Shown one piece after another: positions 8,102 to 63,035 of a stretch of 64,000 nucleotides of DNA. The stretch's first letter is position 1, and the number at the start of each line of letters is the position of its first letter. The notes below the pieces were generated by a model. That model was not told the DNA's origin and did no database searches. It saw only the letters and a program-made list of their open reading frames with translations. Origin of the DNA: a virus; IMG/VR virus record IMGVR_UViG_3300009152_000046, positions 1 to 64,000 of that record; one strand, given 5' to 3'. The position numbers were made by a program, and so were the translations under genes.

Positions 8102-8260
8102 ATGGCATTTATTAATTGGGGTTCTGAGAGCCCAGAACAACTAGCAATTAGGCGTCAAATCGAAGAGCAGACGATGTACGAACAGATGGTAATGATGGCA
8201 CAAAGCAGAGCAGGTCAAGCTCCTGGTGCTGCTGGAGTAGCTGGTGGCGGTGGCGGAGGT
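8102..8260 (+). repeat. Anchor module copy 1 (shared with 62877-63035)
   Basis: Codons 1-53 encode the same N-terminal module as at 62877-63035 with only a few substitutions, and the 27-nt leader is also conserved. Downstream coding sequence is unrelated. Confidence 0.85.
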
Positions 8261-27170: not shown

Positions 27171-28311
27171 AAACAAGTAATAAGTCGAAGGCTGAATCGG
27201 AAAAGTATTTGTCTAGTGTCTCATTAAATTCATTAAAAGTAAGAGCTGGCTGCTGATTTAGCATAAATCTAAAGAGATCATTAACGTCTTTGATCTTAGT
27301 ATTGATCTCTCTAGTTAAAGCTGGGTAAGTTTTTCTTAAATCAGTAATTAGTAAATTCCATAAGAACACTGAGTAACCTTTCATTAGCAATTCAATTGAG
27401 GCTTCCTTACCGGCTCTATCATTATCAAAAAAGATTCGCGAGTTTTCTTTCGTAACTAAGCTGGCCAGTAACTGCTTACTTTTTGTAACTCCGGTAGTGG
27501 CAATACAGTTTCGGACAAACATTGAATCAATTTGGCCCTCAGTAATAGTGATCTTTTGGGTAAAATTTATGTTTAGTATATTAAAATAATTGTTTAGTGA
27601 GTTAACTTGAGTGATAAAATCTTCATCTAGATCTGGAACAAGTCCATTCTTCTTAAATTCAGTATAGTTCTTAATATCGTATTTTGGACCCGGATAATCA
27701 TCGTTAATACGACGTAATGCAAAGCCAATAACTTTTCCTGATTTAATGTCAAGGTTAAAAATATACACCTTGTCTTGTCGAGAATCATAATAACAGCTCT
27801 GTTCAAATACTGGAAGTTTATTAATTTTTCGTTTTTCAATAAATATTCCAATCGGGCTGTCGGCTTCTGCATCTTTACATGGAATAAGAGAAAAACGATC
27901 AACTACCTCACTAAATACAAGCAGTTGCTTACCTACTTCTCGGTTAATTAAGAATTCAATTAGGAAACCTTTCTTCTTGATCGAAGTTGCAGGTTTATAC
28001 TCTACTTTCTTCTTCTCTACTCCAGGAACACCTAGTGTATATTTAAGAGCAAACTTTGAGATAAACTTTTCAAGAGGAACCCAAGTAGAACACCCATCGT
28101 TGTAGCATTTATAAGTTTGCGTACTCAGGTAAAGGTGGCCCCTCTTCTTATTTGGATCAGTTAGTGAGTCACCGCAATACGGGCAGGCAAAATTAAGCTT
28201 ATCCTCATCGGTATCATTTATTTTTTGTCGAAGAGGATCTCCTGGAAATCTCTTCTTAAGAACATCTTCGACAAATTTAACAACTGTGTAACTCACGTCT
28301 AATTTAAACAT
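27169..28311 (-). CDS. DNA primase, gp61/DnaG-like
   Basis: 380 residues. The N-terminal zinc ribbon uses Cys43, Cys46, Cys69 and Cys74 (ACPYCGD, KCYNDGCS), for template recognition. The TOPRIM core follows: ITITEGQIDSMFV near residue 258 and RIFFDNDRAGKEA near 292 (the Glu and D-x-D metal ligands). The arrangement and size fit T4-type gp61 rather than full-length bacterial DnaG, and no helicase-binding domain is evident. It makes RNA primers for lagging-strand synthesis with the replicative helicase, which is outside the window. The polymerase C-half gene ends five bases upstream, so both are co-transcribed. Confidence 0.85.
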   Translation of the reverse strand: MFKLDVSYTVVKFVEDVLKKRFPGDPLRQKINDTDEDKLNFACPYCGDSLTDPNKKRGHLYLSTQTYKCYNDGCSTWVPLEKFISKFALKYTLGVPGVEKKKVEYKPATSIKKKGFLIEFLINREVGKQLLVFSEVVDRFSLIPCKDAEADSPIGIFIEKRKINKLPVFEQSCYYDSRQDKVYIFNLDIKSGKVIGFALRRINDDYPGPKYDIKNYTEFKKNGLVPDLDEDFITQVNSLNNYFNILNINFTQKITITEGQIDSMFVRNCIATTGVTKSKQLLASLVTKENSRIFFDNDRAGKEASIELLMKGYSVFLWNLLITDLRKTYPALTREINTKIKDVNDLFRFMLNQQPALTFNEFNETLDKYFSDSAFDLLLV

Positions 28312-48129: not shown

Positions 48130-48415
48130 CAGTAATCTCTAGGTTATTTTCCAATTTATATTTTTCCCAGTCTTCTGCATTCATTAGATCTGGAAATCTT
48201 TCTCCCTCATTACAAGAAACGTTGACATACATTTTTCCTGGTGTAGAACAGCCACAATATTTACAGTAGCCCTGTACCATGCAATCATCTTTACAGATTT
48301 CAGAACGATATAGCACTTGCTCACGCTCATGTTTTGGAAGAAGATGCATTTTATCGCCTAGCATTTTTAGGTTGCCTTCAATAAATTGAAAGACCTTTTT
48401 TGGTGTAATTTTCAT
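48113..48415 (-). CDS. Small Cys-rich protein in the glycan island (100 aa)
   Basis: Contains CKDDCMVQGYCKYCGC near residues 41-56 and a further Cys in VNVSCNEGERFP, a likely zinc or iron-sulfur site. The N-terminal 30 residues are basic and helical (KKVFQFIEGNLKMLG). Short Cys-rich proteins of this sort are found beside surface-sugar genes, with no established role known to me. It overlaps the NeuB-like gene by four bases and the HAD gene by 17, so it belongs to the same translated series. Confidence 0.6.
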   Translation of the reverse strand: MKITPKKVFQFIEGNLKMLGDKMHLLPKHEREQVLYRSEICKDDCMVQGYCKYCGCSTPGKMYVNVSCNEGERFPDLMNAEDWEKYKLENNLEITGDIFH

Positions 48416-49302
48416 TTTCCTCTAAGTGTTTTTCTTTTTGCAAGCTCAGATGCGATTACTTCACGTGGTCCATATCCGCCACGAGCAGCTTCAACATCAC
48501 GGATACTCTTTACTAATTTAATGAGTCCTTGCGGTTCAACTGATGCCATCTGATCGCTACCCCAAAGAGAGCGGTCTAGCGTAATATGTCGTTCTACCCA
48601 AGTTGCACCTAATATTGTAGCAGCAACGGTAGTCGTAAGACCAAATTCATGGCCAGAATAACCGACTTCAAATTTCTTTTCAAAATCATTACCTCTATTA
48701 ATATGTGATAAGTATGTAATATAGTCTAGGTTTAATTCTTCAATTGGCGATGGATATGTTGAATTAGTATGGAACACAACATCAGGTCGACCTGCTGCAA
48801 TGGCAAGATCAATTTCTTCTTGCGTGCTCATTCCAGTAGAAATTAGCAAAAAGTCAGAATTCTCTCTAGCATACTCTACTAAAGTTAGGTCATTAATTAA
48901 AGCTGAAGGTATTTTAGTCATAACTCCCCATTTACCATTAGGTAGCATTGTTTCAAAACCTCGCATAAAATCAACTGCACCCTTATCCCAAACTGAAGCA
49001 AACCACTTCATTCCTTTAGAATCACAATACTTGTCAATTTCTTTGTATGTTTCCTTTTCAAATTCAATATCACGCTTATATTGAAAGTATGTAGTTTCCT
49101 CTTTTCTCCAAGGAACGTTCTTTGCTTTTAATCTCTCAGCTTGAGGTACACATAGCTCTGGAGTTCTTTTTTGAAACTTAACATAGTCGACGCCAGCGAT
49201 AGACGCAACATCGATAAGTTTCATAGTATGCGCTAAAAACTTTTCAATATGGGTACCGTATGCATAATTAATTCCAATTTCAGCAATAATTTTAGTTTTC
49301 AT
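48412..49302 (-). CDS. neuB: Nonulosonic (sialic) acid synthase, NeuB-like
   Basis: 296 residues. The NeuB TIM-barrel signature is clear: AEIGINYAYGTH near residue 6, YVKFQKRTPELC near 40, MKWFASVWDKGAVDFM, LLISTGMSTQEEID near 150, VVFHTNSTYPSPIEE near 172 and GYSGHEFGLTTTVAA near 213, then ERHITLDRSLWGSDQ. The enzyme condenses phosphoenolpyruvate with a hexosamine-derived substrate to give a nonulosonic acid such as Neu5Ac, legionaminate or pseudaminate. The usual C-terminal antifreeze-like (SAF) domain of about 60 residues is missing. Which sugar is made cannot be read from sequence. Confidence 0.9.
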   Translation of the reverse strand: MKTKIIAEIGINYAYGTHIEKFLAHTMKLIDVASIAGVDYVKFQKRTPELCVPQAERLKAKNVPWRKEETTYFQYKRDIEFEKETYKEIDKYCDSKGMKWFASVWDKGAVDFMRGFETMLPNGKWGVMTKIPSALINDLTLVEYARENSDFLLISTGMSTQEEIDLAIAAGRPDVVFHTNSTYPSPIEELNLDYITYLSHINRGNDFEKKFEVGYSGHEFGLTTTVAATILGATWVERHITLDRSLWGSDQMASVEPQGLIKLVKSIRDVEAARGGYGPREVIASELAKRKTLRGK

Positions 49303-49307
49303 TTAAT

Positions 49308-50018
49308 TTAATTATTTTTCGAATACTGTTCCTCATCGTGATAACAAGTAAATTCATTTATGTAATAACTTTTTAGATTATTTTTTTTGATAAAGTTCCT
49401 AGACCTTTCCCACAAGTCTGCGTCGGCAGGTAACCCAACCTTTCCAGTTTCGGCAAAAAGATCCCTATATAGTAGAGGAATTTTTTTAAAATTCATACAC
49501 ACTGATGAGTGAATTAATTTACTGGATATTGGATAACCCTCAACAAATTTGGATTGAGAATAGAAATCTGGTAAAATTCGAATTGGCGTAATATGTGTGG
49601 ATTTAGTACACATCCAGTCTGCGCCAGTTCTAATTATACAATTATTAATTTCAGCCAAGTGATTTGGTTTCCAGTGGTCATCATGGTCAAGGTGACAAAT
49701 ATACTTAAATTCCTCTGCTTGTGCTGTTTCAATTGAACGATTAAGTGCGTTAACTCCACCGTATGACCATAGTGCTTTTTTATCAGTGTAATTATCTCGT
49801 TCCTTTGCAACATTAAGATTTTCAAAATGTAATTTATCAGATGGGTACTGAGAAATAATATCATTAATTTCTGTTAAATTTTCATATCGATCACCAATTA
49901 GAAATATTTTAAAATCAGAGTACGTCTGATTAAAGATTGAGTTAAGCGCTCTCTTTAAATAAAATGGAGTCTTATTGTCTGCACGTTGATAGGTCGCAAT
50001 TGAAATTGCAAGTTTCAT
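49308..50018 (-). CDS. GT2-type glycosyltransferase
   Basis: 236 residues, GT-A fold: ISIATYQRADNKTPFYLKRA near residue 4 (N-terminal nucleotide-binding strand), IFLIGDRY, ALWSYGGVNALNRSIETA, and YICHLDHDDHWKPNHL near 112 with the D-x-D-type metal site (DHDD). A single catalytic domain without membrane segments, so it acts in the cytoplasm on a soluble or membrane-bound acceptor. Sits six bases from the NeuB-like gene in the island. Confidence 0.8.
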   Translation of the reverse strand: MKLAISIATYQRADNKTPFYLKRALNSIFNQTYSDFKIFLIGDRYENLTEINDIISQYPSDKLHFENLNVAKERDNYTDKKALWSYGGVNALNRSIETAQAEEFKYICHLDHDDHWKPNHLAEINNCIIRTGADWMCTKSTHITPIRILPDFYSQSKFVEGYPISSKLIHSSVCMNFKKIPLLYRDLFAETGKVGLPADADLWERSRNFIKKNNLKSYYINEFTCYHDEEQYSKNN

Positions 50019-50038
50019 TTTCTACTAAATATTTTTTA

Positions 50039-50797
50039 TTAAATTAGCGTCCACTCACTAAGATACGTATCTGGAATAATATATTTTACATTTATGGTAT
50101 TGTCTTTAAACCATAGCCGTGGGGCAATCGTTTTAGCATTTGACAAATATGATCCCCACCAAGAAAAAGTACTATTTGCCATTACGAGATGTTTTGCCTG
50201 GGTTAAAACATAAAAATCTTCAATAACTGAATTTTTTATGTATTCACAATCTAATCCAATTGTATTTTTTGCTGCAACAATATTATCAGTCACGACTATT
50301 ACTCGTTTTGTTGGAAAAAAGGTTAATGCTTTTTTATAATATTCCCTATCTAATTGGTGCCAGGTAGTATGTCCTCCACCGGCATAGTCTCGATAATGCA
50401 TAATTACGCATTCATCAAAATCAATATTCAAATGATTGGTAATTGGCTTGGGTGTCAAAAAATGTTTAATTATGTCTGGACAATGATTAAAATATTTAGG
50501 TGAACCTAAATAGCCGTGTATGTTAACATTATCTGGAATATTGAACCCAACAAATCCGACATCTGCCCCATATAAATTTTTGGTCATTGCATGGATTCGA
50601 TAGGAGCCCGGTGACTCTATTTTAGGTAACGGATTAGTAAAATGTTCTTGATGTATCCATTCTGGAAAACCGTAAGAGAAGCCATTGTTAGTAGCTATTC
50701 CAATAACACTGGCGATTCTAAATAAAATGTTTCCTAAGCCACTATCACCTTTTCCAGTAAGCATAGTGTTATTATTGAGTAGAGATGTTGTAATCAT
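50039..50797 (-). CDS. Fucosyltransferase-like protein (GT11 type)
   Basis: 252 residues. GDSGLGNILFRIASVIGIA near residue 18 (the G-x-G-N-x-x-F motif of GT11 alpha-1,2-fucosyltransferases), a central VIMHYRDYAGGGHTTW region near 132, VIVVTDNIVAAKN near 165, and LVMANSTFSWWGSYLS near 205 (the S-T-F-S-W-W-x motif). The arrangement is that of GDP-fucose-dependent transferases. Donor identity (GDP-fucose or a related sugar) is family-based; no GDP-fucose synthesis gene is seen in the window. Confidence 0.8.
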   Translation of the reverse strand: MITTSLLNNNTMLTGKGDSGLGNILFRIASVIGIATNNGFSYGFPEWIHQEHFTNPLPKIESPGSYRIHAMTKNLYGADVGFVGFNIPDNVNIHGYLGSPKYFNHCPDIIKHFLTPKPITNHLNIDFDECVIMHYRDYAGGGHTTWHQLDREYYKKALTFFPTKRVIVVTDNIVAAKNTIGLDCEYIKNSVIEDFYVLTQAKHLVMANSTFSWWGSYLSNAKTIAPRLWFKDNTINVKYIIPDTYLSEWTLI

Positions 50798-50801
50798 AAT
50801 T

Positions 50802-51584
50802 TTAAATTATATTAATATTTTCACTTTTATGCCAAGGTCTAGATGGAGCACCGGCATATGGATCTAGCGCTGCTCCAACATCAATTTGAGTGATGTTTGG
50901 ATATTTAAAAAACATTTTACTAAACAGCATTTTACCAGTAACTGCACATCCATATATTATTACAGGATCTTTTATTTTATCTAAAAGTAAAGTAAGGGAC
51001 TCCTCATAATTTTCGTGGTATTCCCAAGAATAAGTTATTGGGGTGGTAATATGATATTTTTCGATACACTGAAATTTCATATTTTTTTGATGATTCGGTC
51101 CGACTAGTATAACTCGTCTATCTCTAAGAGATTTAAAAAACTCATTAAGCCCATAGTAAACATACATATGCATAAAAGTTATGCAATTAATAGATAAGGC
51201 GTCAGTATGTTTAAACCTTTGATAAAAGGCATCAAGTATAGAACTATAGTTTTTATGGCGGGTATAGATATCATCTATACACGGTGTTCTATTTTCTATA
51301 CCAATTGTTAGATTTAGATCATTTGTCTCTTCTTTATATTTAAAGATTGGGTCGAGTGACTTTTCATAAATAGTTCGATATGGCTCTTCAAGTATAGTAT
51401 TTTGAGGAATGTTTAAATACGCTTTTATATCACCATCCCCCATTCTTAAAAAAGAAAAATTAATATTATTTTTAATTAATTGTATAATTTTATTATACGT
51501 TTCTTCAGAAGAGTGGGGAGTAGTCGGATACGTCCATTTTTCCCAGTTTTTCGCAATATGCGTATCGTTTCGTTTAGGCAGCAT
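50802..51584 (-). CDS. GT-D-fold glycosyltransferase-like protein
   Basis: The ATG at 51584 is preferred; a GTG 48 nt upstream would overlap a small frame on the same strand. 260 residues: FSFLRMGDGDIKAY near residue 41 (the GT-D metal/sugar-nucleotide D-x-D region), RVILVGPNHQKNM near 153, PVIIYGCAVTGKML near 206, and QIDVGAALDPYAG near 233, typical of the GT-D family found in surface-glycan clusters. The donor is unknown. Base composition is markedly AT-rich. Confidence 0.7.
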   Translation of the reverse strand: MLPKRNDTHIAKNWEKWTYPTTPHSSEETYNKIIQLIKNNINFSFLRMGDGDIKAYLNIPQNTILEEPYRTIYEKSLDPIFKYKEETNDLNLTIGIENRTPCIDDIYTRHKNYSSILDAFYQRFKHTDALSINCITFMHMYVYYGLNEFFKSLRDRRVILVGPNHQKNMKFQCIEKYHITTPITYSWEYHENYEESLTLLLDKIKDPVIIYGCAVTGKMLFSKMFFKYPNITQIDVGAALDPYAGAPSRPWHKSENINII

Positions 51585-51588
51585 AAAT

Positions 51589-51699
51589 TTATATCTTTTC
51601 TCTAATTGATGAATTTGTGCCAAAATAAACACAGTCTCCTATTACTATTGCGCGACTATCATCTGGGCAATATGCAGTAATTGAGATTAAATCTTTCAT
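51589..51699 (-). pseudogene. Possible remnant of a glycosyltransferase N-terminus (36 codons)
   Basis: An ATG at 51699 overlaps the stop of the dioxygenase gene (ATGA) and opens MKDLISITAYCPDDSRAIVI, a sequence typical of the first strand of GT-A-type glycosyltransferases, but the frame stops after 36 codons. It overlaps the 5' part of the GT-D gene in another frame. Either a short real peptide or, more likely, a truncated gene head left by recombination. Confidence 0.35.
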
Positions 51700-52490
51700 A
51701 TTATTTGATCCTGGTCTTTTTTATAAAATCTTTTATTTTCAGGTTGGTACCATTCATACAAAGATGCAGGTACCCTTGAGTGATATCCTAATAATTGTTG
51801 TAATTCAAAACTAAACTCATCAATCCTGTCGTAACCAATTGCTCTTGGGTAATCTAATAATTGTTTCATGAACGGTTTACTTACGGTTATTGGGATTGCT
51901 CTTCTATGATCTTGTGTTATATTTAGTGCCGATGAATGCCAAACATTAGCGTTAAAAACTATCATGTCGCCCTTTTTACCAACGGCTTGTATAGCGTTTT
52001 GAAAAAATTCTTCGTCACTTGGTTTTTTTTTATCTAAATGAGAATAAGGCAATAGATATGTCGCTCCATTTTCAATTGTAAAATCATCCACCATTAATAA
52101 ACAATTTAACATAATTGGGAAATCACCAGAATAAAATCTTAAATCTCGGTGAACAATTGCCGAGAAATTTGGTTGATTTGGTAGATTATCCAATCCACTA
52201 AATGAATTAATAATACACTTACTATTAAAAAAAGATTCCGAAAGGAACTCAAAGAATTTTTTACTTTGAATATCTTCCAATAAATTAATGAATATTGGAT
52301 TACTTAATAACACATGAAGAGCAACTCCATTAGTTTGAATATCATTATTGTTATTTAATTGAGTTTCTCTATGCTCAATAAATGCTTTGTCCAAAGCATC
52401 CCTTAACAAATCTAACCAATTTTCATTGACTAAATTTCGGATAATTGTATACCCTTGTTCTTTTAACTCTATGCTATTTTCTTTTTTCAT
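51696..52490 (-). CDS. Phytanoyl-CoA dioxygenase-type (PhyH) Fe(II)/2-oxoglutarate enzyme
   Basis: 264 residues. The dioxygenase metal triad is visible as H-x-D in AIVHRDLRFYSG near residue 113 and the distal His in NANVWHSSALNIT near 181, followed by RRAIPITVS with the 2-oxoglutarate-binding Arg. Size and plan match PhyH-like proteins. In surface-glycan clusters such enzymes hydroxylate or oxidise a sugar or lipid group. The substrate is unknown. It overlaps the NeuD-like gene by four bases. Confidence 0.75.
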   Translation of the reverse strand: MKKENSIELKEQGYTIIRNLVNENWLDLLRDALDKAFIEHRETQLNNNNDIQTNGVALHVLLSNPIFINLLEDIQSKKFFEFLSESFFNSKCIINSFSGLDNLPNQPNFSAIVHRDLRFYSGDFPIMLNCLLMVDDFTIENGATYLLPYSHLDKKKPSDEEFFQNAIQAVGKKGDMIVFNANVWHSSALNITQDHRRAIPITVSKPFMKQLLDYPRAIGYDRIDEFSFELQQLLGYHSRVPASLYEWYQPENKRFYKKDQDQII

Positions 52491-53152
52491 TTTAAAAATT
52501 TTTCGTTTTGAGCTCTTTCTCTTATAATTTTAGCAGGATTTCCATATGCTAAAACATTTGGTGGTAATGATTTAAGAACAACGCTACCAGCACCAACAAC
52601 TGTATTTTCTCCAATTTCTAATCTATCTAAAACAGTAACGCCTAAAGTTAATGCGGAGAATTTACCCATTTTAACATAACCACCAGTCACTGAACCTGCA
52701 GAAATACTTGCAAAATCAGAAATTACACAATCATGTTCGACTTGTGCACCGGTTGCAAAAAATGTAAAATCACCAATTGTAGCTTTTGGATTAAATATTA
52801 CTCCAGCCATTGCAACAACACCAACACCAATTGAAACGTAATTTCCAATTATGACTGATGGATGTATTGCATTTACAAATTCGAAATTAGGCATTCTACT
52901 AACAATGTCATTATAGACTAATTGTCTTGACCAATTATCTCCAATGGTTATGATACCACAATCAATGTAATATCTTTTGCATAATTCAACAATATCAGTT
53001 TGTCTTCCAAGGACTGGATAATCAAATCTAATACTTCCAATTTCTTGAACTGAATCGATTATACCAACAATGTTGTACTTACCTTCACGTTCAATAATAT
53101 CTATGCAATAATGTGCTTGGTTTCCTCCACCAATTAAAACTATATTTTTCAT
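52487..53152 (-). CDS. NeuD/PglD-like sugar O/N-acyltransferase
   Basis: 221 residues. An N-terminal Rossmann part (NIVLIGGGNQAHYCIDII, residues 3-20) for substrate binding is followed by a left-handed beta-helix of hexapeptide repeats (HPSVIIGNYVSIGVGVVAMA, TIGDFTFFATGAQVEHD, VISDFASISAGSVTGGY, IGENTVVGAGSVVLKS) ending NVLAYGNPAKIIRER. This is the NeuD/PglD family, acetyl-CoA-dependent acyltransferases acting on UDP-sugars or nonulosonic acids. With NeuB, NeuA and an aminotransferase nearby it would add an acetyl group to the sialic-acid-like sugar. Catalytic His is expected at H in VEHD. Confidence 0.85.
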   Translation of the reverse strand: MKNIVLIGGGNQAHYCIDIIEREGKYNIVGIIDSVQEIGSIRFDYPVLGRQTDIVELCKRYYIDCGIITIGDNWSRQLVYNDIVSRMPNFEFVNAIHPSVIIGNYVSIGVGVVAMAGVIFNPKATIGDFTFFATGAQVEHDCVISDFASISAGSVTGGYVKMGKFSALTLGVTVLDRLEIGENTVVGAGSVVLKSLPPNVLAYGNPAKIIRERAQNEKFLK

Positions 53153-53778
53153 TTTTTATAAATTTCAAATTTTGATAAATCAGGATAAGGTAATTCTAAA
53201 TCAGCATTATGTTTTTTAGTACCATCGGTATTATAGAACTGGCCCATTAATAGAAGTCCACGAGCAGCTAGTTCAGGCATCATATAAAAATTCCATCCTA
53301 ACATATCAAAATTATCATCATGATATGAACATTCACGGCGACCGCTATATCGAGCTCGTTTAAACCACATGTATGCATCATGATTATCAGTTAAGATCGC
53401 ACCGCCTTTACTTAATTTAAAGTGTTTGTATGGACCAGTAAATGAGATACACATATGAGTTCCAGGTTTATACATGTCTGCAGTAAAGCTTAATGCTGAA
53501 TCCCAAACATTACTTGGAGCCAATTGATATGCACCTTTAATTGTTCGCCCTTCAACTGGTGTAAAATTTATTTTAGCGCCAGCATGGATAATTTCACAAG
53601 GAACAGAAGGATATGTTCTTGCAGGTATCGTGATTTCCATACCTTCTACTTTTTCGTACATTAACGCTAAAAAAAGCGCATTACTTTGATTATCGACAGT
53701 TATTACATATGGGGCGCCAGTGTAGTCGCCTAATGCTTTTTCAAAGTCTTCAGTTATTTTGTATACTCCGTTTGCCAT
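53149..53778 (-). CDS. DegT/DnrJ/EryC1-type aminotransferase, short form
   Basis: 209 residues, about half the usual length (near 370). Visible are YVITVDNQSNALFLALM near residue 24 (PLP-phosphate-type loop), ITIPARTYPSVPCEIIHAG near 48, VWDSALSFTADM near 92, and CISFTGPYKHFKLSKGGAILT near 110-130 with the Lys expected to bind PLP. The C-terminal domain of the family is largely missing. It could aminate a nucleotide sugar, but full activity from half a chain is uncertain. Preceded by a minus-strand late-type box. Confidence 0.7.
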   Translation of the reverse strand: MANGVYKITEDFEKALGDYTGAPYVITVDNQSNALFLALMYEKVEGMEITIPARTYPSVPCEIIHAGAKINFTPVEGRTIKGAYQLAPSNVWDSALSFTADMYKPGTHMCISFTGPYKHFKLSKGGAILTDNHDAYMWFKRARYSGRRECSYHDDNFDMLGWNFYMMPELAARGLLLMGQFYNTDGTKKHNADLELPYPDLSKFEIYKK

Positions 53779-53799
53779 GTTATTCTATTTTTTTTATAT

Positions 53800-53809
53800 T
53801 TTATTTATT
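53800..53809 (-). promoter_or_regulatory. Late-type box inside the glycan island
   Basis: Reads AATAAATAAA on the minus strand, 31 nt before the ATG at 53778; overlaps the stop codon of the GT2 gene upstream. Suggests the 3' half of the island can be made late. Confidence 0.45.
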
Positions 53810-54512
53810 TTATTTTTGAGAAGGTCGGTTTAAAATTACAGTATTCAAAACACACATCGAGTCTTCCATGTGGGAAACCTAATTTTTTATATTCAGATAT
53901 ATCTTTATTTGAAATTCCAGGAATTCTAGGAGTCACTCCTTGAAAATGTATTATTGGAGAACTAGTAGCGATTGCAAATTTCCAACCTTTTTTATATAAC
54001 ATTTCATACAAGTAATCGTCTCCACAGAAAAAGCTTAGAGTCTGAGGTATTTGAGAGTATGCAGAACGCCTCATTGTAAAATCCCAGCCCTGACGATATT
54101 TGTCTGAAAAAATTTTATAATTTAGTGGAGTGCAGGTTTGATAGTTAAGATGATTTGTAGCATGCGACACACAGCCAACAGTTGATTCTTTTTCAAAAAT
54201 ATCAAGAGTATCCTTTACAAAATTTTTAGGAATAATTACGTCATTATTTAGAAAGCAGTAATACTCATATTGATTTTGGCGTACAAATCCATTCCATAAA
54301 TGGTTCAATGGAATATTTTGTCCATTGTATTGTATGCGCTCAATAAAAGGATATTTTAGTGAACTTAAAATATTTTTAGTATTTGGCTCAGTTGATCCAT
54401 TGTCAATTATAGTCAACTTAAAATCAGTAGACGTCTGTTCAGAAAGTTGTCGAACGACGTCAGCGGTATAATTGATATGGTTTCGATTAATTACAATTAT
54501 TCCAAGTTTCAT
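53805..54512 (-). CDS. GT2-type glycosyltransferase
   Basis: 235 residues, GT-A fold. GIIVINRNHINYTADVVRQL near residue 4, LTIIDNGSTEPNTKNIL near 33, YYCFLNNDVIIPKNFV near 85 with the N-D-D/N-N-D metal-type motif, and FFCGDDYLYEMLYKKGWKFA near 162 with the catalytic-region GDD. Rhamnosyl- or glucosyltransferase-like, but the donor is unknown. Overlaps the GT4-type gene by four bases. Confidence 0.8.
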   Translation of the reverse strand: MKLGIIVINRNHINYTADVVRQLSEQTSTDFKLTIIDNGSTEPNTKNILSSLKYPFIERIQYNGQNIPLNHLWNGFVRQNQYEYYCFLNNDVIIPKNFVKDTLDIFEKESTVGCVSHATNHLNYQTCTPLNYKIFSDKYRQGWDFTMRRSAYSQIPQTLSFFCGDDYLYEMLYKKGWKFAIATSSPIIHFQGVTPRIPGISNKDISEYKKLGFPHGRLDVCFEYCNFKPTFSKIK

Positions 54513-55372
54513 AAAGTATCGTATATTTTAGTAAATTCATTGACTATTGTTTGAGGATGCCAATGTTTATTCATCCAAGCACGACTTGCATCTCCTTTAC
54601 TTAAGATTGATTCAATTCCGCTATCAATAATTTTACAGAGTTCAAGTTCTAAGTCAGTGCTCCATATGTTAACAAATGGAGAAATAGTTGCACCAGACGA
54701 TGATAATAAAACCCGTTCTACTTCAGGAGAAAGAGAGCAAATTGTCATCTTTCCAAGAGCCAGGCCCTCTAGTCCAGAACGGTGATAACTTGCAGTCACA
54801 CATTCATCAATAATAATATTACAATTAGACTTGCGAGCAATACATTGATCTAGAGGAACTCCAGTAATAATGTCGATTTCAACGTCAGTTCCATATATTT
54901 TTTTAATTTTAGTTAGAACAGCAAGTGTGACTGAATATCCTTTATCATGCCATTGACCCATTTTAGTAGACCTGCTTGGAGAAAATCCTATTCTAACGAC
55001 ATTGCTTATAGACTTTGGTGTGTATTGAGCAGTTGTGAAATCGATAACATTTCTGACAATTTTGCAATTTGAATATTGAGGAAGAGTTGCATGGTATTGC
55101 GAAATAACAAGACGATTATCGACTCGGCTTTTTAGGTCTACTTGAAACGGTTCGCTATGATATTGCAAAATAGTTTTCTTACCTCGATTTACTGAAGGAA
55201 GACGATTATGCGCATGTAAAATATCATATCGAGCAGCTGACTCTGGTCTAGCTGCTCCATGCCCTATCATAGAACATCGATAACTTTTGCTAAATTTATT
55301 AATAGCAGAAGCAAGTTCGACTGGAGCTTTTGCTATTGGAGTAGCGCTATAATGATATACTGTTTTTATCAT
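54509..55372 (-). CDS. GT4-type (GT-B) glycosyltransferase
   Basis: 287 residues. VYHYSATPIAKAPVELASAI near residue 4, a short N-lobe with DILHAHNRLPS near 50 and KTILQYHSEPFQVDL near 65, then IGFSPSRSTKMGQWHDKGY near 128 (C-lobe nucleotide site) and YHRSGLEGLALGKMTICS near 196, where the E-x-x-A-x-G/S pattern of GT4 donor binding appears (EGLALG). Somewhat shorter than typical GT4 proteins. Overlaps the next gene by four bases. Confidence 0.75.
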   Translation of the reverse strand: MIKTVYHYSATPIAKAPVELASAINKFSKSYRCSMIGHGAARPESAARYDILHAHNRLPSVNRGKKTILQYHSEPFQVDLKSRVDNRLVISQYHATLPQYSNCKIVRNVIDFTTAQYTPKSISNVVRIGFSPSRSTKMGQWHDKGYSVTLAVLTKIKKIYGTDVEIDIITGVPLDQCIARKSNCNIIIDECVTASYHRSGLEGLALGKMTICSLSPEVERVLLSSSGATISPFVNIWSTDLELELCKIIDSGIESILSKGDASRAWMNKHWHPQTIVNEFTKIYDTL

Positions 55373-56760
55373 CTTTGATTTTTTTTAAAAACTCCAGGTA
55401 ATATTTCCTTAAATGTTTTCTTTAGGTATAATTGTTCCGTCGCATACTCGTGGACATTTGAAATGGCCAGTGAATCATTTGATCGAAGAACAGATAATTT
55501 ACCATTTTCATATCCATTAAATCCAAATAATGCTAATTCATAGTTAGTTAACCTTAGCTCGTCAATTAAAATAATTATAGCTAGACCGGATGTTGGGACG
55601 AGCGTATCTTTACGAAAAGTTCGAGTTATACTAGATTTGTCTGGATAATTATAGTTTATGATACGCTTCGATGGATAACTTGAAAGTATTTCATCTACTG
55701 CATTTTTCCATGGAGATATAGGTTTGGATAAAATAATTAAATAATCAGAATCAAGATCTAAATTAAATCGGGCTTCTCTAAATATGCAATGAATATTAGT
55801 TTTGGTTCCAGTATGCTTAGTTGAGGTTACATAACCATTAAATCTGATAATTATGTCATATGAATCAATGAGTTCTCCATATTGATAATTAAGAAGTTCT
55901 GCTGAATTTGCAACAACTGCTATTTTTTTACCATTTAGATATTTAAAAAGAGTTTCTCTACTTATAAGTTGAGTTGAGTTAGTAATTTTAGCTAACGGTT
56001 CAGGCGGGTTTACAGCTAACTTAGCGGTTACTTCCTTTTTTTGTTCACGTACTGCAGAATTAAAATTTAAAGGTTTACTCAATTTATGATTAAGTAAATG
56101 ATTTTGATATAACCATACCTGATTGATTTTTCCATATTTAGGATTAGTATATGCTATGGTATCATAATCAATAAAACTTGCATTTGCTAATGCTCGAGCA
56201 AGTTGCATATACTTTGGATCTGGTACAGTCGATGCTAAAACTCCAAGCGTATCAGTATATTCAACGTTATTAGTTTGAAGTAAACTATTTTTTAGACAGT
56301 TTAAATAAGAATCAGTTGATGTTTTATTTAGTGAATCTGTATACGCAGTGTTTGGCGAATCTACATAAAAAATTGAATAATTACCAGCGACCATTATTTT
56401 ATTTGGTTGTAAAATAGAAGTCACGTCCTTCATAAAAAGACAAGTATTACTAAAAAATAATAATTTACTTGGAGCAAAAGAAAAAATAAAGCACCTAAGT
56501 TGGTCTTGAACATGGGCTGGTGTTATTTTTAATCTTGGTGAAATTGCGACTGCTTGGGAAAATAGTACTATTTCAATATTTTGATAAATTGCTTTTAATT
56601 TTTCAAAGTTTAGACTTGAAAGAGGAAAGTTTGGATGTACAACTAGTGTTATTTTTCCGTTGAACCAGGTGTTGGTTTCAAGGAAACTGTGCACGCTTAC
56701 TCTAGCTAAGTGGAACTGTGCATCGCTGGCAATTGTTACTGCATTTATCTTATTTTCCAT
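55369..56760 (-). CDS. Two-domain transferase with C-terminal sialyltransferase-like domain
   Basis: 463 residues. N-terminal part: AVTIASDAQFHLARVSVHSF near residue 8, with FSPSKLLFFSNTCLFMKDV-type lines, resembles a GT-A-like transferase (GT8 type by plan). C-terminal part from residue 272: KKIAVVANSAELLNYQYGEL, IIIRFNGYVTSTKHTGTKTN near 310 (L-motif-like region of GT29 sialyltransferases), TSGLAIIILIDELRLTNYEL near 392 (S-motif-like), and HEYATEQLYLKK near 437 (His of the VS motif). With CMP-sugar synthesis genes next to it, transfer of a nonulosonic acid is the natural reading. The start overlaps the NeuA-like gene. Confidence 0.7.
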   Translation of the reverse strand: MENKINAVTIASDAQFHLARVSVHSFLETNTWFNGKITLVVHPNFPLSSLNFEKLKAIYQNIEIVLFSQAVAISPRLKITPAHVQDQLRCFIFSFAPSKLLFFSNTCLFMKDVTSILQPNKIMVAGNYSIFYVDSPNTAYTDSLNKTSTDSYLNCLKNSLLQTNNVEYTDTLGVLASTVPDPKYMQLARALANASFIDYDTIAYTNPKYGKINQVWLYQNHLLNHKLSKPLNFNSAVREQKKEVTAKLAVNPPEPLAKITNSTQLISRETLFKYLNGKKIAVVANSAELLNYQYGELIDSYDIIIRFNGYVTSTKHTGTKTNIHCIFREARFNLDLDSDYLIILSKPISPWKNAVDEILSSYPSKRIINYNYPDKSSITRTFRKDTLVPTSGLAIIILIDELRLTNYELALFGFNGYENGKLSVLRSNDSLAISNVHEYATEQLYLKKTFKEILPGVFKKNQR

Positions 56761-57397
56761 CGAATTTATCTAAATCTTTTTGTGTATCAACATCAACTAC
56801 TTCCGGAATTTCATAAAATATAGTAGAGTCGCAATATAAGTTCCTGTTTAATTTATATATTGCGCTGGACTTAAAAATACAGAGATAATGACTTATTTCG
56901 AAGCATTTTGGGTAGTCCTGGCGTCTATATAGATCATGGGGTGTAATTTGGGTACCGAATATACCATTTGATCCAAGCTCCTGTAAACAAAGATATGGGT
57001 GAGTCTGAGTCTCCTTCTTACATAAGAGGGAATCAGTTATTCCGAGCTTATAGTAATCTAAAAAGAACGTTAATGCCCTACCGATGTCCTCCCAAGTACG
57101 TTCAGGATAGGTTAAGTACAACATTACTATAATATCATCTGGTGTAGAGTCAATTTCGGTGAGTGCATGTAATAAGACATCACGAGTAGAAGTAGTGTCC
57201 CTTCCAAGGGAGTCAGGTCGTCTAATTACATTAAACCCATGGTCATTGGCTAGGGTTGCAACAATCGGATCGTCGGTAGTTACCCAAACTGATTTTTTAT
57301 ATTCTTCTGGAATAATATTTGCAGTGTGCTTAAAAAGAGTACGATTTTTAAAAGGAAGTCCCTTTGATCCTAGTCGGGCTGGAATTATTATTTTCAT
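56750..57397 (-). CDS. neuA: CMP-nonulosonic (sialic) acid cytidylyltransferase, NeuA-like
   Basis: 215 residues. IIPARLGSKGLPFKN at residues 3-17 is the CTP-binding P-A-R-x-G-S-K-G-x-P-x-K-N motif of CMP-NeuAc/CMP-KDO synthetases; VWVTTDDPIVATLAND near 42, RPDSLGRDTTSTRDVLLHAL near 60, VMLYLTYPERTWEDI near 90 and the final PEVVDVDTQKDLDKF near 200 (the metal-binding D-V-D) complete the fold. It activates a nonulosonic acid with CTP for transfer, and the sialyltransferase-like gene overlaps it by 11 bases. Specificity (Neu5Ac, Leg, Pse) is not determined. Confidence 0.9.
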   Translation of the reverse strand: MKIIIPARLGSKGLPFKNRTLFKHTANIIPEEYKKSVWVTTDDPIVATLANDHGFNVIRRPDSLGRDTTSTRDVLLHALTEIDSTPDDIIVMLYLTYPERTWEDIGRALTFFLDYYKLGITDSLLCKKETQTHPYLCLQELGSNGIFGTQITPHDLYRRQDYPKCFEISHYLCIFKSSAIYKLNRNLYCDSTIFYEIPEVVDVDTQKDLDKFDGK

Positions 57398-58011
57398 AGT
57401 TTATCGAATGCCTCGATAGATATTTTTGGAAGATCGACTCTACTTGTAGCGCTAAGATTATATAACCCTACTCCTCTTTTTTCAAGAGCTATTCGATAAC
57501 TATTGTATGCTGAGTTAACTTTTGGTAAATTCCTGATCTTAATAATTTGGTGTTGTCCATCCTTCGGATTGTAAAAATGACCGTCTGTAAAATCAACTCC
57601 AATTAAGCCAATATTCTTTGCGCCCATTTTATAGGCAAGTCCAATTGCAGTATATGGAGAATTTTGAAAATGGTCAAGATGGTTGGGCTTATCTAAACTT
57701 GAAATAGAGGTTGTACCTAATTCAAAATGAGCAATATTTTTGTGTCTCCAACCAGCAACACAGGTAAAGAGACACTTTGCAGTTGACTCATTGACGAGCT
57801 TACGACGAGAATCAGTAAATCTCTGTGGAACATCGGTAACTAACAGATAAGTCGGCTGAAACAGTGCAGGTACATCGTTTACCCCTATTGTGATATATTT
57901 TGAATAAATATTCTTAAGCTGTAAAAGAGAAGTACCACATCCGCACACAATAATCTTCGAATCGGGATGAATCCCAACAAATTCGCTCATATTTTTCAGT
58001 AGTGCTGACAT
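57394..58011 (-). CDS. MptE/DUF115-like Rossmann protein
   Basis: The ATG at 58011 is chosen since the longer in-frame TTG at 58044 would fall on the promoter -10 region. About 205 residues: KIIVCGCGTSLLQLKNIY near residue 15 (Rossmann loop), ITIGVNDVPALFQPTYLLVTD near 38, and GLAYKMGAKNIGLIGVDFTDG near 123. This is the pattern of DUF115/motility-accessory-type proteins found with nonulosonic acid glycosylation genes. It may act in transfer or handling of the activated sugar. First gene of the island, directly after an early-type promoter. Confidence 0.65.
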   Translation of the reverse strand: MSALLKNMSEFVGIHPDSKIIVCGCGTSLLQLKNIYSKYITIGVNDVPALFQPTYLLVTDVPQRFTDSRRKLVNESTAKCLFTCVAGWRHKNIAHFELGTTSISSLDKPNHLDHFQNSPYTAIGLAYKMGAKNIGLIGVDFTDGHFYNPKDGQHQIIKIRNLPKVNSAYNSYRIALEKRGVGLYNLSATSRVDLPKISIEAFDKL

Positions 58012-58034
58012 TCGAGTAGAACTTTTTCTTTTTT

Positions 58035-58065
58035 TGTTATACAATATAGAAGAATAAAAGTTTAG
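58035..58065 (-). promoter_or_regulatory. Early-type promoter of the glycan island
   Basis: On the minus strand CTAAACTTTT, a 14-nt spacer, then TATAACA, 24 nt before the ATG at 58011. The -35 decamer is identical to that of the AAA+ gene. Confidence 0.6.
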
Positions 58066-59056: not shown

Positions 59057-59089
59057 TAAGTGTACCATGAATTTTTTTACAAAAGCCTT

Positions 59090-59099
59090 AATAAATAAT
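59090..59099 (+). promoter_or_regulatory. Late-type promoter box of the head genes
   Basis: AATAAATAAT plus A-run, 26 nt before the TTG at 59116. Confidence 0.65.
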
Positions 59100-59115
59100 A
59101 AAAAAATTTAAGGCT

Positions 59116-61095
59116 TTGATAAATTCAAACAATAAGTCCAATAGTGAGGATGTAGTTCTTATTATTGAGAATGTTGGTCAGAAACTTGCCATACAAACTA
59201 ACACCAAGAACGGAACCGTTTTAGAAGGTGTGTGTGCAGTATTTGGTGAAATGAACAACAATCGTAGAGTTTACGAGAAAAACGAGTATTTGCCTCATCT
59301 TTCCTATCTTAATGAGAAGATCGCAAAAAACCAACTAGTTGGTGCTCTAGATCACCCACAACATTTTGAGCCAAAACTAAGTGAAGCTTCACATATCATT
59401 GAAAACTTATCACACGATGGTGGTAACAAAGTAATGATTAAACTTCGAATCTTAGAAAACACGCCAAATGGTAAAATTGCAAAAGCCCTATTAGATGGAG
59501 GAGTTCAATTATCAATTTCTTCAAGAGCAGCTGGAACAGTTAATGAAAGTGGCCGTGTTACTTTACAAAGAATATTTACATATGACTTAGTTGGAGAACC
59601 TGGTTTTACTGATGCTGTCCTAAAACAAACAGTAAGCGAGTCTCTAAAAAATGAGTTTCAAATGATTACTGAGAGCTATTCTCACCTAAAAGAAATATCA
59701 TTTATTTCTGCTAAAAAATTACAGGACGTTTCAGAAAGTTTGAATTTTGCAGATAATTTTAAAGTCTATAAGATAAATAATTCAAATAAAGAGTTAGGAA
59801 ACGTATTTCAACCGACTCAAAAAACACAAAAAAATAGCACAACAATGGCCGATTTTGTAACAAGAGAACAAATGGATCAGTACTCAGAAGTTTTGAAAAA
59901 TCAGTTTTCTGGCATTAAAAAAGAGCTTAAAGCTCAAAAAGTAATGTTTGAATCAACTGGTTCAGGATCACCTGAAGTAGATAATTTAAAGCTTGTAGGT
60001 TTCGTTAACTACTTAGCAGAACAACTTGAAGGAGTTGTAAACTACGCAGACTATCTTTCTAACAAACTTAACGAGTCTATTAAATATACTGAACATGTAG
60101 CTGAAACTACAAACAGCGGTATTGAATATTCTAGTTATGTTGGTGAAAGATTAAACCAAAGCATTAATCATCAAGATTACCTAGCTGAAAAATTAAATCA
60201 AACGATTAATTATTCAGAGTATATTAAAGAAAATTTAAACAACTCTATTAAGTATCAAGGTTATTTAGCTGAAGAGTTAGATAAAGGACTTCAATACACT
60301 GAATATGTTGCTGAAGGAGCAAACAGAGGAATTGAATACTCTGAGCACTTAGCAGAAAACATTAATTTGAACCGTGAATATCAACAATACGTTGCTGAGA
60401 AATTAGGTCAAACTATCGGTTACACTGAATACCTTGCAGAATCTTTAAATGAAGGAGTTACAACAGGCGGAAAACGCAATGTTTTAGGTGGAGTTTCTAA
60501 ATTAGATGAATCAACTTCAGTTGATGCGCTAATCGCAAAAGTTGACCAAGTAATCACTGAAGTAAATGATAATTCTTCTAAAGCAGTTCTTGAAAACAAA
60601 TATCCTTTCTTAAAGGTTATGACTGATGCTAAGAAGAAAGCATTCTATACACTAGATGCAGAGAATAAACAAGCGATTGTTGAAACTCTTAACGCATCTG
60701 TTTGGTTCAATGAAGCTGATGTAACTGGAATCATGGAAGCAGTAATTGCTCACAAAAACGAAAACGTTCCTGCACATATTAAATTCATGCCAGCTGATTT
60801 CAAACAAGCATGGTCATTAATGAATGAAAATGAAAAAGCAAGAGTTAATGCAAAAGCTCAATTATATACTATCAAAACTCCATACCAAGCTATGACTTTC
60901 TGGAGCGAAATAGATATGAGAGGACTTAATGAAAGAGTAGAAATTCAAAAGAATAACGCAAAAATAGAAGCACAGCTCAACGAAAGCCAAGGTACAGAAG
61001 GCCTAATACCTGTAAATCAGGTTGTTGAGATGCAGAGAGGTTACTCTCAAGGTTACTTAGAAATGTTATCGCGTCAAGCAGACTATCGAAAGTAA
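59116..61095 (+). CDS. Prohead protease fused to scaffold (gp21-gp22-like)
   Basis: 659 residues from a TTG start. Residues 1-230 are a gp21-type prohead protease: VCAVFGEMNNNRRVYEKNEY near residue 35, LVGALDHPQHFEPKLSEASH near 75 (His), and LSISSRAAGTVNESGRVTLQ near 135 (catalytic Ser), followed by a LVGEPGFTDAVLKQ region. The remaining 415 residues are a scaffold, including eleven 14-residue coiled-coil repeats (residues 295-448) whose units carry L/V-A-E, a motif that matches the protease's own site. An internal ATG at 59845 in frame could give the scaffold alone. Protease and scaffold are separate genes in T4. Confidence 0.85.
   Translation: MINSNNKSNSEDVVLIIENVGQKLAIQTNTKNGTVLEGVCAVFGEMNNNRRVYEKNEYLPHLSYLNEKIAKNQLVGALDHPQHFEPKLSEASHIIENLSHDGGNKVMIKLRILENTPNGKIAKALLDGGVQLSISSRAAGTVNESGRVTLQRIFTYDLVGEPGFTDAVLKQTVSESLKNEFQMITESYSHLKEISFISAKKLQDVSESLNFADNFKVYKINNSNKELGNVFQPTQKTQKNSTTMADFVTREQMDQYSEVLKNQFSGIKKELKAQKVMFESTGSGSPEVDNLKLVGFVNYLAEQLEGVVNYADYLSNKLNESIKYTEHVAETTNSGIEYSSYVGERLNQSINHQDYLAEKLNQTINYSEYIKENLNNSIKYQGYLAEELDKGLQYTEYVAEGANRGIEYSEHLAENINLNREYQQYVAEKLGQTIGYTEYLAESLNEGVTTGGKRNVLGGVSKLDESTSVDALIAKVDQVITEVNDNSSKAVLENKYPFLKVMTDAKKKAFYTLDAENKQAIVETLNASVWFNEADVTGIMEAVIAHKNENVPAHIKFMPADFKQAWSLMNENEKARVNAKAQLYTIKTPYQAMTFWSEIDMRGLNERVEIQKNNAKIEAQLNESQGTEGLIPVNQVVEMQRGYSQGYLEMLSRQADYRK
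59845..61095 (+). CDS. Nested in-frame scaffold gene (internal start)
   Basis: ATG at codon 244 of the fusion, preceded by an A-rich, Shine-Dalgarno-less stretch like other starts here (AAAAAAATAGCACAACA). The product would be about 416 residues beginning MADFVTREQMDQYSEVLKNQ, a scaffold without the protease. Phage lambda's C/Nu3 pair uses the same arrangement. The extra start would set the scaffold-to-protease ratio; initiation here is inferred, not shown. Confidence 0.5.
   Translation: MADFVTREQMDQYSEVLKNQFSGIKKELKAQKVMFESTGSGSPEVDNLKLVGFVNYLAEQLEGVVNYADYLSNKLNESIKYTEHVAETTNSGIEYSSYVGERLNQSINHQDYLAEKLNQTINYSEYIKENLNNSIKYQGYLAEELDKGLQYTEYVAEGANRGIEYSEHLAENINLNREYQQYVAEKLGQTIGYTEYLAESLNEGVTTGGKRNVLGGVSKLDESTSVDALIAKVDQVITEVNDNSSKAVLENKYPFLKVMTDAKKKAFYTLDAENKQAIVETLNASVWFNEADVTGIMEAVIAHKNENVPAHIKFMPADFKQAWSLMNENEKARVNAKAQLYTIKTPYQAMTFWSEIDMRGLNERVEIQKNNAKIEAQLNESQGTEGLIPVNQVVEMQRGYSQGYLEMLSRQADYRK
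59998..60459 (+). repeat. Eleven tandem 42-bp (14-residue) scaffold repeats
   Basis: Each unit is exactly 14 residues, two heptads. Consensus: [NKE]-Y-x-[DE]-Y-[LV]-A-E-x-L-N-x-[ST]-I. Examples are NYADYLSNKLNESI, KYTEHVAETTNSGI and NHQDYLAEKLNQTI. At DNA level the units have diverged, so the repeat is old or under protein selection. Confidence 0.9.
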
Positions 61096-61122: not shown

Positions 61123-62790
61123 ATGGCACGTACTAAAATTTTTAGACGTTCAAGCGACGCTCGCTTGTCAAACACTTGGAAGCCTGTTCTTGAAGGATAC
61201 GGAGCAGATATGTCGAAGACTCCATGGTTAGCTGAGTACGCTCACAACCACGCGATTTTCGATAATACTACACCATTATTCGAACAAGCAACTCCAGGAT
61301 TATTTTTCCAACAACCATCTTCTTTAGGCGGTTATATGGGAGCACCAACTGCACCAACTTCTGGACAAACTCCATTTTCAATGGGTGCAAAAAATTCTTA
61401 CTCAGATTCTGGATCTGGTGACAAATTCCCTTCACTTTTACCTGTAGCTATCCAAGTTGCAGCTAAAACAATCGGATTTGACTTAGTACCAGTAATTCCA
61501 ATGGATTCTCCAGTAGGTTTCTTACCGTACTTAGATTACGTTTATGCAGGTGGTCGTACAGACAACCCTAACGGTAATGGGAATAACTTTGATCCTTATT
61601 TGATTAAGGTTGAAGGTCTTACTTACAATGAATTTCCAAGTGCAACCTCTGGTGATACTGTAAATGGTGCTGCTGACTTTACTGCAGAATTCGTAGGATT
61701 CTCTCGTATCGATGGTAATGTAATCATTAAAGTAAAAACAGATATTTCAACTGCAGGTGAAGGTTTCGTATCGGATAACGTACTTGGTTTCCTTGCTCCA
61801 CTTACTATTAATGGTGACGGTCCATTTACAGGTACCGCAGTATCTTTAGTTTCTGCACTAGAAAACCACATCTCTGGTTTCACTTCAGTATCTGATGCTG
61901 ATTATGCTACTACAGACTTCAATGGTCCATACTTACCAACTACTGGTACTGTACCGGGATCTATGAAGAGAGATAAAGCTGAGCTTTCTAAATTCCGTCA
62001 AATGGGATTAAGAATGTTCACTAAATTCGTAGAAGCAGAAGGTGACCAAGTGTCTATCTCTGCAACTGTAGAACAAATCCAAGATTTGAACCGTGTATGG
62101 AATTATGACGTAATCTCTATGTTAGAGAACGTTGCAGTTAACGACATCGCTCAATCTATCAACAAGCGTTTAGTTGACAGAGTATTAACTCTTGCGGCTA
62201 CTCACTCTACTGAAGTAGCATTAGTTGAAGGTGCAGGTATCACTAACCTAGACCTTACTGCTGGTGGTGGTGGATTCGAAAACGTTTCTACATTACAACG
62301 TCGATTAGCGACTAAAGTTCTTGAAATGGCTAACTTGATTTATCATAGAGGTCGTTTCGGAGCAGCTACCTTCATGGTAACTAACGGTCGTATCGCTTCT
62401 GCTCTTGCAGACGTTGCTGGTTACTCAATTGCTCAAGTTCCAACCGATATGGCTGGAGTAGCAGGTAACCTTTACCCAGCTGGTAAAGTTTACGGAGTAC
62501 AAGTATACGTAGATCCTAACATGCGTTGGGGAGATAACCGTGTAGTATTAGGCCGTAAAGGTGCTGATGAAGAACCAGGTATCAAATTCATGCCGTATAT
62601 CATGGCTGAGTCTTTACAAACAATTGCAGAGGGTACATTCTCTCCAAAAATTGGTATGAAGTCTCGTTATGCTATCACAGAAGCAGGATGGCACCCAGAA
62701 ACTCAATACATTAATATCGAGATCGATCCTAATGCTATTGGAGTTCTTACTGGAAGCACTGCTCCTGCTACATCATACGGTACGCTTTAA
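61123..62790 (+). CDS. Major capsid protein, gp23-like
   Basis: 555 residues, near T4 gp23 (about 520). The N-terminal stretch MARTKIFRRSSDARL...HNHAIFDNTTPLFEQATPG contains L-F-E at residues 52-54, a probable prohead-protease cleavage site. The remainder has gp23-type HK97-fold lines: VPVIPMDSPVGFLPYLDYVY near 120, RQMGLRMFTKFVEAEGDQVS near 290, RVWNYDVISMLENVAVNDIA near 325, YHRGRFGAATFMVTNGRIAS near 408, and EPGIKFMPYIMAESLQTIAE near 485. It builds the shell. It follows the protease-scaffold gene by 27 bases, ends at a strong terminator, and shows codon use suited to high expression. Confidence 0.9.
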   Translation: MARTKIFRRSSDARLSNTWKPVLEGYGADMSKTPWLAEYAHNHAIFDNTTPLFEQATPGLFFQQPSSLGGYMGAPTAPTSGQTPFSMGAKNSYSDSGSGDKFPSLLPVAIQVAAKTIGFDLVPVIPMDSPVGFLPYLDYVYAGGRTDNPNGNGNNFDPYLIKVEGLTYNEFPSATSGDTVNGAADFTAEFVGFSRIDGNVIIKVKTDISTAGEGFVSDNVLGFLAPLTINGDGPFTGTAVSLVSALENHISGFTSVSDADYATTDFNGPYLPTTGTVPGSMKRDKAELSKFRQMGLRMFTKFVEAEGDQVSISATVEQIQDLNRVWNYDVISMLENVAVNDIAQSINKRLVDRVLTLAATHSTEVALVEGAGITNLDLTAGGGGFENVSTLQRRLATKVLEMANLIYHRGRFGAATFMVTNGRIASALADVAGYSIAQVPTDMAGVAGNLYPAGKVYGVQVYVDPNMRWGDNRVVLGRKGADEEPGIKFMPYIMAESLQTIAEGTFSPKIGMKSRYAITEAGWHPETQYINIEIDPNAIGVLTGSTAPATSYGTL

Positions 62791-62876: not shown

Positions 62877-63035
62877 ATGGCATTTATTAATTGGGGGTCA
62901 GAGAGCCCAGAACAATTGGCAATACGTCGCAGATTCGAAGAGCAGACGATGTACGAACAGATGGTTCAAATGGCACAAAGTAGAGCAGGTCAAGCTCCTG
63001 GTGCTGCTGGAGTAGCTGGCGGTGGCGGGGATCCT
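62877..63035 (+). repeat. Anchor module copy 2 (shared with 8102-8260)
   Basis: Codons 1-53 are the second copy of the shared N-terminal module; similarity stops sharply after the Gly-rich tail. Confidence 0.85.

Follow-up and report, generated by a model that had tools for sequence, protein, structure and literature searches.

In bacteriophage T4, the prohead protease gp21 cleaves after L/I-X-E. Digestion of the core proteins yields multiple fragments, most of which leave the head (PMC9026906). Redundant cut sites are found in the propeptides of phiKZ (PMC9026906), and in SPN3US long propeptides are cut at multiple sites (PMC10052503). The T4 scaffold protein gp22 is itself rich in such sites, with 16 [LI]xE motifs in 269 residues. 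Hence, the demolition of a scaffold via many sites, for which a preliminary description of the present locus had pointed to T4, was already known. What is new here is a modular array.

The window, i.e. the whole stretch of 64,000 nucleotides that was analysed, is part of a 66 kb virus record and contains an open reading frame of 659 amino acids in which a protease and a scaffold are fused (Table 1). The gene of a gp23-type capsid protein lies directly downstream, so that the order of protease, scaffold and capsid protein is the same as in T4 genes 21-22-23. The protease domain comprises the first ~200 residues. The fusion protein matched Peptidase_S77 (PF03420, 6e-11) and S80 (PF20034, 2e-7) in Pfam, both above cut-off, as well as phrog_207 'head maturation protease' in PHROGs (2e-37). 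A Foldseek comparison of its AlphaFold2 model with the crystal structure of T4 gp21 (5jbl) gave an E-value of 6e-11 and a TM-score of 0.73 on the target. The domain is thereby confirmed as a T4 gp21-type prohead protease. D-H-P (His80) and S-S-R (Ser135/136) are invariant in 36 sequences and, by analogy, His80 and Ser135/136 are the putative catalytic residues. Cutting after hydrophobic-x-Glu is the predicted activity, with indirect support from the capsid motif described below.

To collect relatives, viral contigs were scanned using the window protein and five of its relatives as queries, and phage records were searched by tblastn. The sequences form three clades. Clade A includes the window protein (identity 61% and more), clade B the 635-735 kb phages LR756501, LR756502, LR756504 and LR745206 together with some 80 contigs, and clade C phage LR756500 (462 kb) with its own relatives. 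All three clades share the repeat array described below, which occurs in more than 100 contigs and in phage genomes of 462-735 kb; tblastn of phage records with the scaffold part alone matched only six huge-phage records. Most clade A relatives have an in-frame TTG at the place that matches the start of the window gene, and one (L006) has ATG.

Table 1. Features of the protease-scaffold locus and of the adjoining capsid gene (positions in the window).
Feature	Position	Strand	Basis or remark
Late-promoter-like element TAATAAATAA, just 5' of the TTG	59089..59098	+	Recurrence in the window, conservation
Protease-scaffold fusion gene	59116..61095	+	ORF; TTG start shared by most of clade A
Prohead serine protease domain (gp21/S77/S80 type)	59155..59610	+	Pfam, PHROGs, Foldseek 5jbl; invariant columns
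A-rich element CAAAAAAAT before the internal ATG	59827..59835	+	Seen in the clade A sequences inspected; L007 has GAAAAAAAT
Probable internal start codon, Met244 (scaffold of 416 aa)	59845..59847	+	Conserved Met, synonymous peak, GCC codon
Predicted continuous helix, residues 286-429	59971..60402	+	AlphaFold2, low pLDDT (40-60)
Array of eleven 14-residue units, residues 294-447	59995..60456	+	Repeat analysis
Predicted cuts within the array			After E302, E330, E344, E358, E372, E386, E400, E414, E428 and E442; in unit 2 after E320
C-terminal helical domain of the scaffold	60529..61092	+	pLDDT about 70-80 at residues about 493-610
Major capsid protein, gp23 family	61123..62790	+	PF07068, 1.6e-36
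Glu54 of P-L-F-E, predicted capsid propeptide cut site	61282..61284	+	Motif conservation

The AATAAATAAT element upstream of the fusion gene recurs in the window, shortly 5' of some ten further genes, and ATAAATAATAAAAAA is invariant in 13 relatives. Copies resembling AATAAATAATAAAAA near gene starts are located at 228, 2717, 8075, 9855, 21227, 29887, 35118, 41279, 59089 and 62851 on the plus strand and at 27171 on the minus strand, and this recurrent element is likely a T4-type late promoter. At the fusion gene it is surrounded by an inverted repeat, GCCTTAA-N-TTAAGGC (59082-59113), which adjoins the TTG start. Most clade A relatives retain its arms, and some of the changes in them are paired. 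An RNA hairpin formed by these arms at the TTG start was considered and dropped, because it would enclose the promoter-like element, so that its 5' arm would precede the transcript start. The same promoter-like leader precedes two otherwise dissimilar late proteins, the first 36 residues of which are nearly identical (8102-8209 and 62877-62984; MAFINWGSESPEQLAIRR..., 33/36). The two proteins may thus have a module for targeting or attachment in common. A block of sugar genes on the minus strand (48412-58044) immediately precedes the head genes and encodes NeuB, a cytidylyltransferase-like protein, a sialyltransferase-like GT29, GT11, GT2, a DegT aminotransferase, a PglD-like protein and PhyH. 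The block resembles a phage-borne pathway for sialic or nonulosonic acid.

The scaffold part had been described as eleven units of exactly 14 residues at 59998-60459, eight of them carrying L/V-A-E at the same place. Both observations were reproduced: the units are consecutive and in frame in the fusion gene, and L/V-A-E is found in units 1, 3, 5, 7, 8, 9, 10 and 11. Our register begins one codon earlier, at 59995, which makes the first I/V position 1. As unit 4 has VGE and unit 6 IKE, hydrophobic-x-E occupies positions 7-9 in 10 of the 11 units. Unit 2 contains YLSN where the motif is expected, and L-N-E|S follows four residues further, at positions 11-13. The unit consensus among close relatives is I-x-Y-[TS]-E-Y-[LVI]-A-E-x-L-N-x-[SG]. 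Residue identity amounts to 30-35% at lags of 14, 28, 42 and 56 and to at most 12% at other lags, and the protein repeat is well above chance. Tandem Repeats Finder detected no DNA tandem repeat at the array; the repeat is therefore old and visible in the protein only.

The hydropathy of the array has a period of exactly 3.5 residues, with a power of 296 compared with a shuffle mean of 9, and none of 5000 shuffles reached as high a value. With this peak, and with unit spacings that change in steps of 7 or 14, the heptad phase is kept throughout, which supports an array in the form of a heptad-phased helix and bears out the helical part of the coiled coil initially proposed. AlphaFold2 folds a clade B relative (L078) into a single 171-residue helix with a pLDDT of about 80 over most repeats. 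The predictions are monomer models only, and the rods may pack as coiled coils. Position 9, which holds the Glu of the motif, is 162 degrees from the hydrophobic face and is the most exposed position of the helix. Tyr residues at positions 3 and 6, conserved at 80-93% in clades A and B, both face away from the core and perhaps serve lateral packing of the rods.

Clade A arrays have 11 units, clade B arrays have 13-16, and most clade C arrays have 9 or 12; copy number shifts mostly by whole units (values of 9, 11, 12, 13, 14, 15 and 16). There are also departures from the 14-residue step. Three clade A relatives (L142, L143 and L150) carry the 7-residue insertion IKTLN[SN]S after unit 6, and in one clade C array (L105) two units are separated by a step of 35 residues. 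Judging from these alignments, the strictest constraint is the heptad phase, and 14 residues is the usual module.

Compared with shuffled composition, the fusion protein is enriched in [LI]xE (z 4.4) and [LIVM]xE (z 6.2), and among 30 ORFs of the window it alone stands out so strongly. Glu occupies position 9 in 83% of clade A units and 92% of clade B units, whereas Asp was found there once in 394, even though clade B units often have Asp at position 12. No other polar position of the unit varies so little. On the other hand, the residue following E9 is variable (K, N, Q, G, T or E), whereas the gp245 protease of SPN3US favours Ser after Glu (PMC10052503), which speaks against cut sites. A more informative picture is obtained from the units that have lost E9. 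We counted such events in 25 clade A arrays by parsimony on one FastTree of non-array sequence. The E9 site was lost 11 times, and in 8 of these cases a substitute [LIVM]xE was present at positions 11-13 at the end of the branch, compared with 41 of 450 branch-units (9%) in which Glu9 was kept (Fisher 1.2e-6). Three of the compensated losses passed through a state with both sites. In unit 8, where position 11 is Ala, Ser or Thr and not hydrophobic, Glu9 was lost twice and never compensated. At least one site is present in 268 of the 275 clade A units, whereas 5000 shuffles of the substitute sites within each protein averaged 244 such units and never exceeded 253, and every clade A array retains a cuttable site in 10-11 of its 11 modules. 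Clade C loses sites more often (the E9 site was kept in 28 of 46 units of a first sample, and Glu9 was present in 134 of 171 distinct units of a larger one), but the association between E9 loss and the substitute site recurs among its distinct units (p 3e-5, kinship ignored). The sequence comparison thus supports selection that maintains one motif per module, with shifts of the site compensating for losses.

The same data have to be weighed against a purely structural unit, i.e. a two-heptad coiled-coil repeat that spread by duplication, inherited its L-A-E from one ancestral unit and is cut, if at all, at a few places elsewhere. Such a unit would explain why the heptad phase is the strictest feature, with spacings within arrays of 14, 28 and 42 or of 21 and 35, and why the architecture persists in clade C even though about 40% of the units in the first sample are devoid of the E9 site. 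Furthermore, enrichment in [LIVM]xE extends to the protease domain and the C-terminus, and L-A-E suits a coiled coil in being hydrophobic, small and of exposed charge. However, a site-for-site, Glu-specific compensation that needs a hydrophobic position 11 is not expected from it, and we regard this explanation as unlikely.

The whole-unit changes in copy number point to another possibility, namely that the number of modules acts as a ruler that sets the size of the core and of the capsid, the cut sites being secondary. Records of 462, 636, 642, 635 and 735 kb have 12, 13, 14, 14 and 16 units, respectively. However, these are only five genomes of known size, four of them from one clade and none from clade A, in which all arrays have 11 units, and we consider a ruler with secondary cut sites quite improbable. 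A combined version, in which one module is at the same time a building block, a unit of length and a point of demolition, is a tentative idea that we find rather unlikely. In this version very large phages would tune core length by gain and loss of modules, and as every added module would carry its own cut site, a longer scaffold would remain fully removable.

The weakest alternative, that an exposed acid at position 9 or 13 merely preserves salt bridges or net charge and thus mimics compensation, agrees with the location of both positions on one helix face (162 and 147 degrees), with an E9K/K13E swap in unit 7 of L007, with the partial retention of charge in the Q13E/E9x exchange and with the fact that a single base change turns Gln into Glu at position 13, which explains part of the preference for Glu as the gained acid, but it is very unlikely, as clade A units that lost E9 show no clear gain of acid at positions 2, 4, 5, 10, 12 or 14, the acid gained is always Glu and never Asp at position 13, and unit 8 lost E9 twice and gained none. 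This pattern, in which only Glu is gained and position 11 has to be hydrophobic, fits a protease site better than it fits a charge.

We now return to the protease sites and to the size of their products. The preliminary description had envisaged cut sites spaced every 14 residues along a coiled coil, with a product of regular size. The computations support a heptad helix, an exposed position of the sites and their maintenance by selection, but not a fixed spacing. The 14-residue product is not conserved, because sites slid by four residues in 8 of the 11 losses and a heptad can be inserted. Even in the window protein the fragments would not all be 14-mers, as the predicted cut in unit 2 lies 18 residues after the first site. 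What is conserved, as far as the alignments tell, is the phase of the heptads and the presence of a site in each module. The predicted 14-mers, with computed masses in Da, are TTNSGIEYSSYVGE (1505.65), RLNQSINHQDYLAE (1699.83), KLNQTINYSEYIKE (1741.89), NLNNSIKYQGYLAE (1625.81), ELDKGLQYTEYVAE (1656.79), GANRGIEYSEHLAE (1544.72), NINLNREYQQYVAE (1752.84) and KLGQTIGYTEYLAE (1584.80). An 18-mer, QLEGVVNYADYLSNKLNE (2068.01), and a 10-mer, SIKYTEHVAE (1175.58), are predicted around unit 2.

The scaffold probably also exists in a free form that starts at the internal ATG. An internal Met occurs in each of the three clades, but at shifting positions within clade C. In clade A, synonymous conservation peaks at this ATG, where a ratio of 1.5 (about 2.9 sd) ranks with the highest intervals; it is weaker in clade B, and clade C is poorly alignable. 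The Ala codon that follows the ATG is almost always the rare GCC, which accounts for only 46 of the 928 Ala codons in these ORFs, these included. The clade A element CAAAAAAAT is found at a near-constant distance from the ATG and resembles the A-run before the start of the capsid gene. It is plausible that TTG for the fusion and ATG for the scaffold would yield scaffold in excess of protease. T4 gene 21 has an internal start too, but it is inside the protease (PMC9026906).

A hydrophobic-x-E motif is also found in the N-terminal arm of every capsid protein examined, at places that differ among the three clades: [LIV]FE in 24/24 proteins of clade A and, a few residues earlier, [IM]xE|N in 54/54 of clade B and L[YN]E in 24/24 of clade C. 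Where B and C have I/L-x-E, clade A shows I-F-D|N, with [LIV]-F-E six residues later (61123-61290), and the propeptide site seems to have moved in clade A.

In summary, the most likely explanation is that the fusion joins a T4-type protease to a modular helical scaffold of its own, with a predicted cut in each module. Eleven 14-residue modules would form a rod-like heptad helix in the middle of the scaffold, and such rods would pack as the prohead core during assembly, with the shorter product of the internal ATG adding scaffold without protease. The C-terminal helical domain is a candidate for the end that binds capsid or portal. Closure of the shell would activate the protease, which would trim the capsid protein at P-L-F-E54 and cut the rod after the Glu of each module ([LIVM]-x-E), and the resulting peptides, mostly of 14 residues, would exit before DNA entry. 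The sequences show the identity of the domains, the repeats, the heptad phase and the upkeep of one motif per module, whereas we infer the coiled-coil packing, the free scaffold, the cutting and the escape of the peptides; the scaffold most probably works in the manner of T4 scaffold demolition. A modular rod in which each module has a selected site would bear on how phages clear their scaffolds fully and at the right moment, and on what determines capsid size when genomes reach 400-700 kb. It is a simple design rule that predicts exact peptides, and in such a system the number of modules and the number of sites can be changed separately.

Compared with T4 gp21, gp22 and gp23, the window has the same protease fold, the same capsid family and a helical scaffold rich in [LI]xE (gp22 z 5.0). 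However, the T4 protease and scaffold are separate, whereas here they form one ORF, and gp22 has no periodic repeat. The scaffold matched no scaffold family in Pfam or PHROGs and is, by sequence, not a member of the gp22 family. It does have gp22-like traits, being a helical protein encoded beside the capsid gene and rich in protease motifs, and by analogy its removal at maturation is predicted. Repeat-built phage scaffolds were not found in the open-access papers searched. ORFs of the Lak phages and of Streptococcus phage GXN1 have the same N-terminal protease domain, but their middle parts, acidic and of low complexity in Lak and coiled-coil-like in GXN1, lack the 14-residue unit by eye. A protease and scaffold in one frame, with a nested start for the scaffold, are known from lambda C/Nu3. 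The herpesvirus UL26/UL26.5 frame is built in the same way (PMC4498786), and the window gene, which has protease and scaffold in one frame, would resemble it further in its likely nested start. However, cutting of the herpes protein occurs mainly at two sites (R and M), compared with a predicted one per module in the window array, and herpes proteases gave only weak, non-significant fold matches in Foldseek. Tenacibaculum phage PTm1 (BBI90692.1; L021:3564-5258) also has a protease-scaffold fusion that is rich in [LI]xE (z 5.7) and contains a periodic region with repeated L-S-E sites. Its period is 16/32 residues instead of 14 and its unit sequence is unrelated, and the PTm1 repeat is possibly an independent case of the same design.
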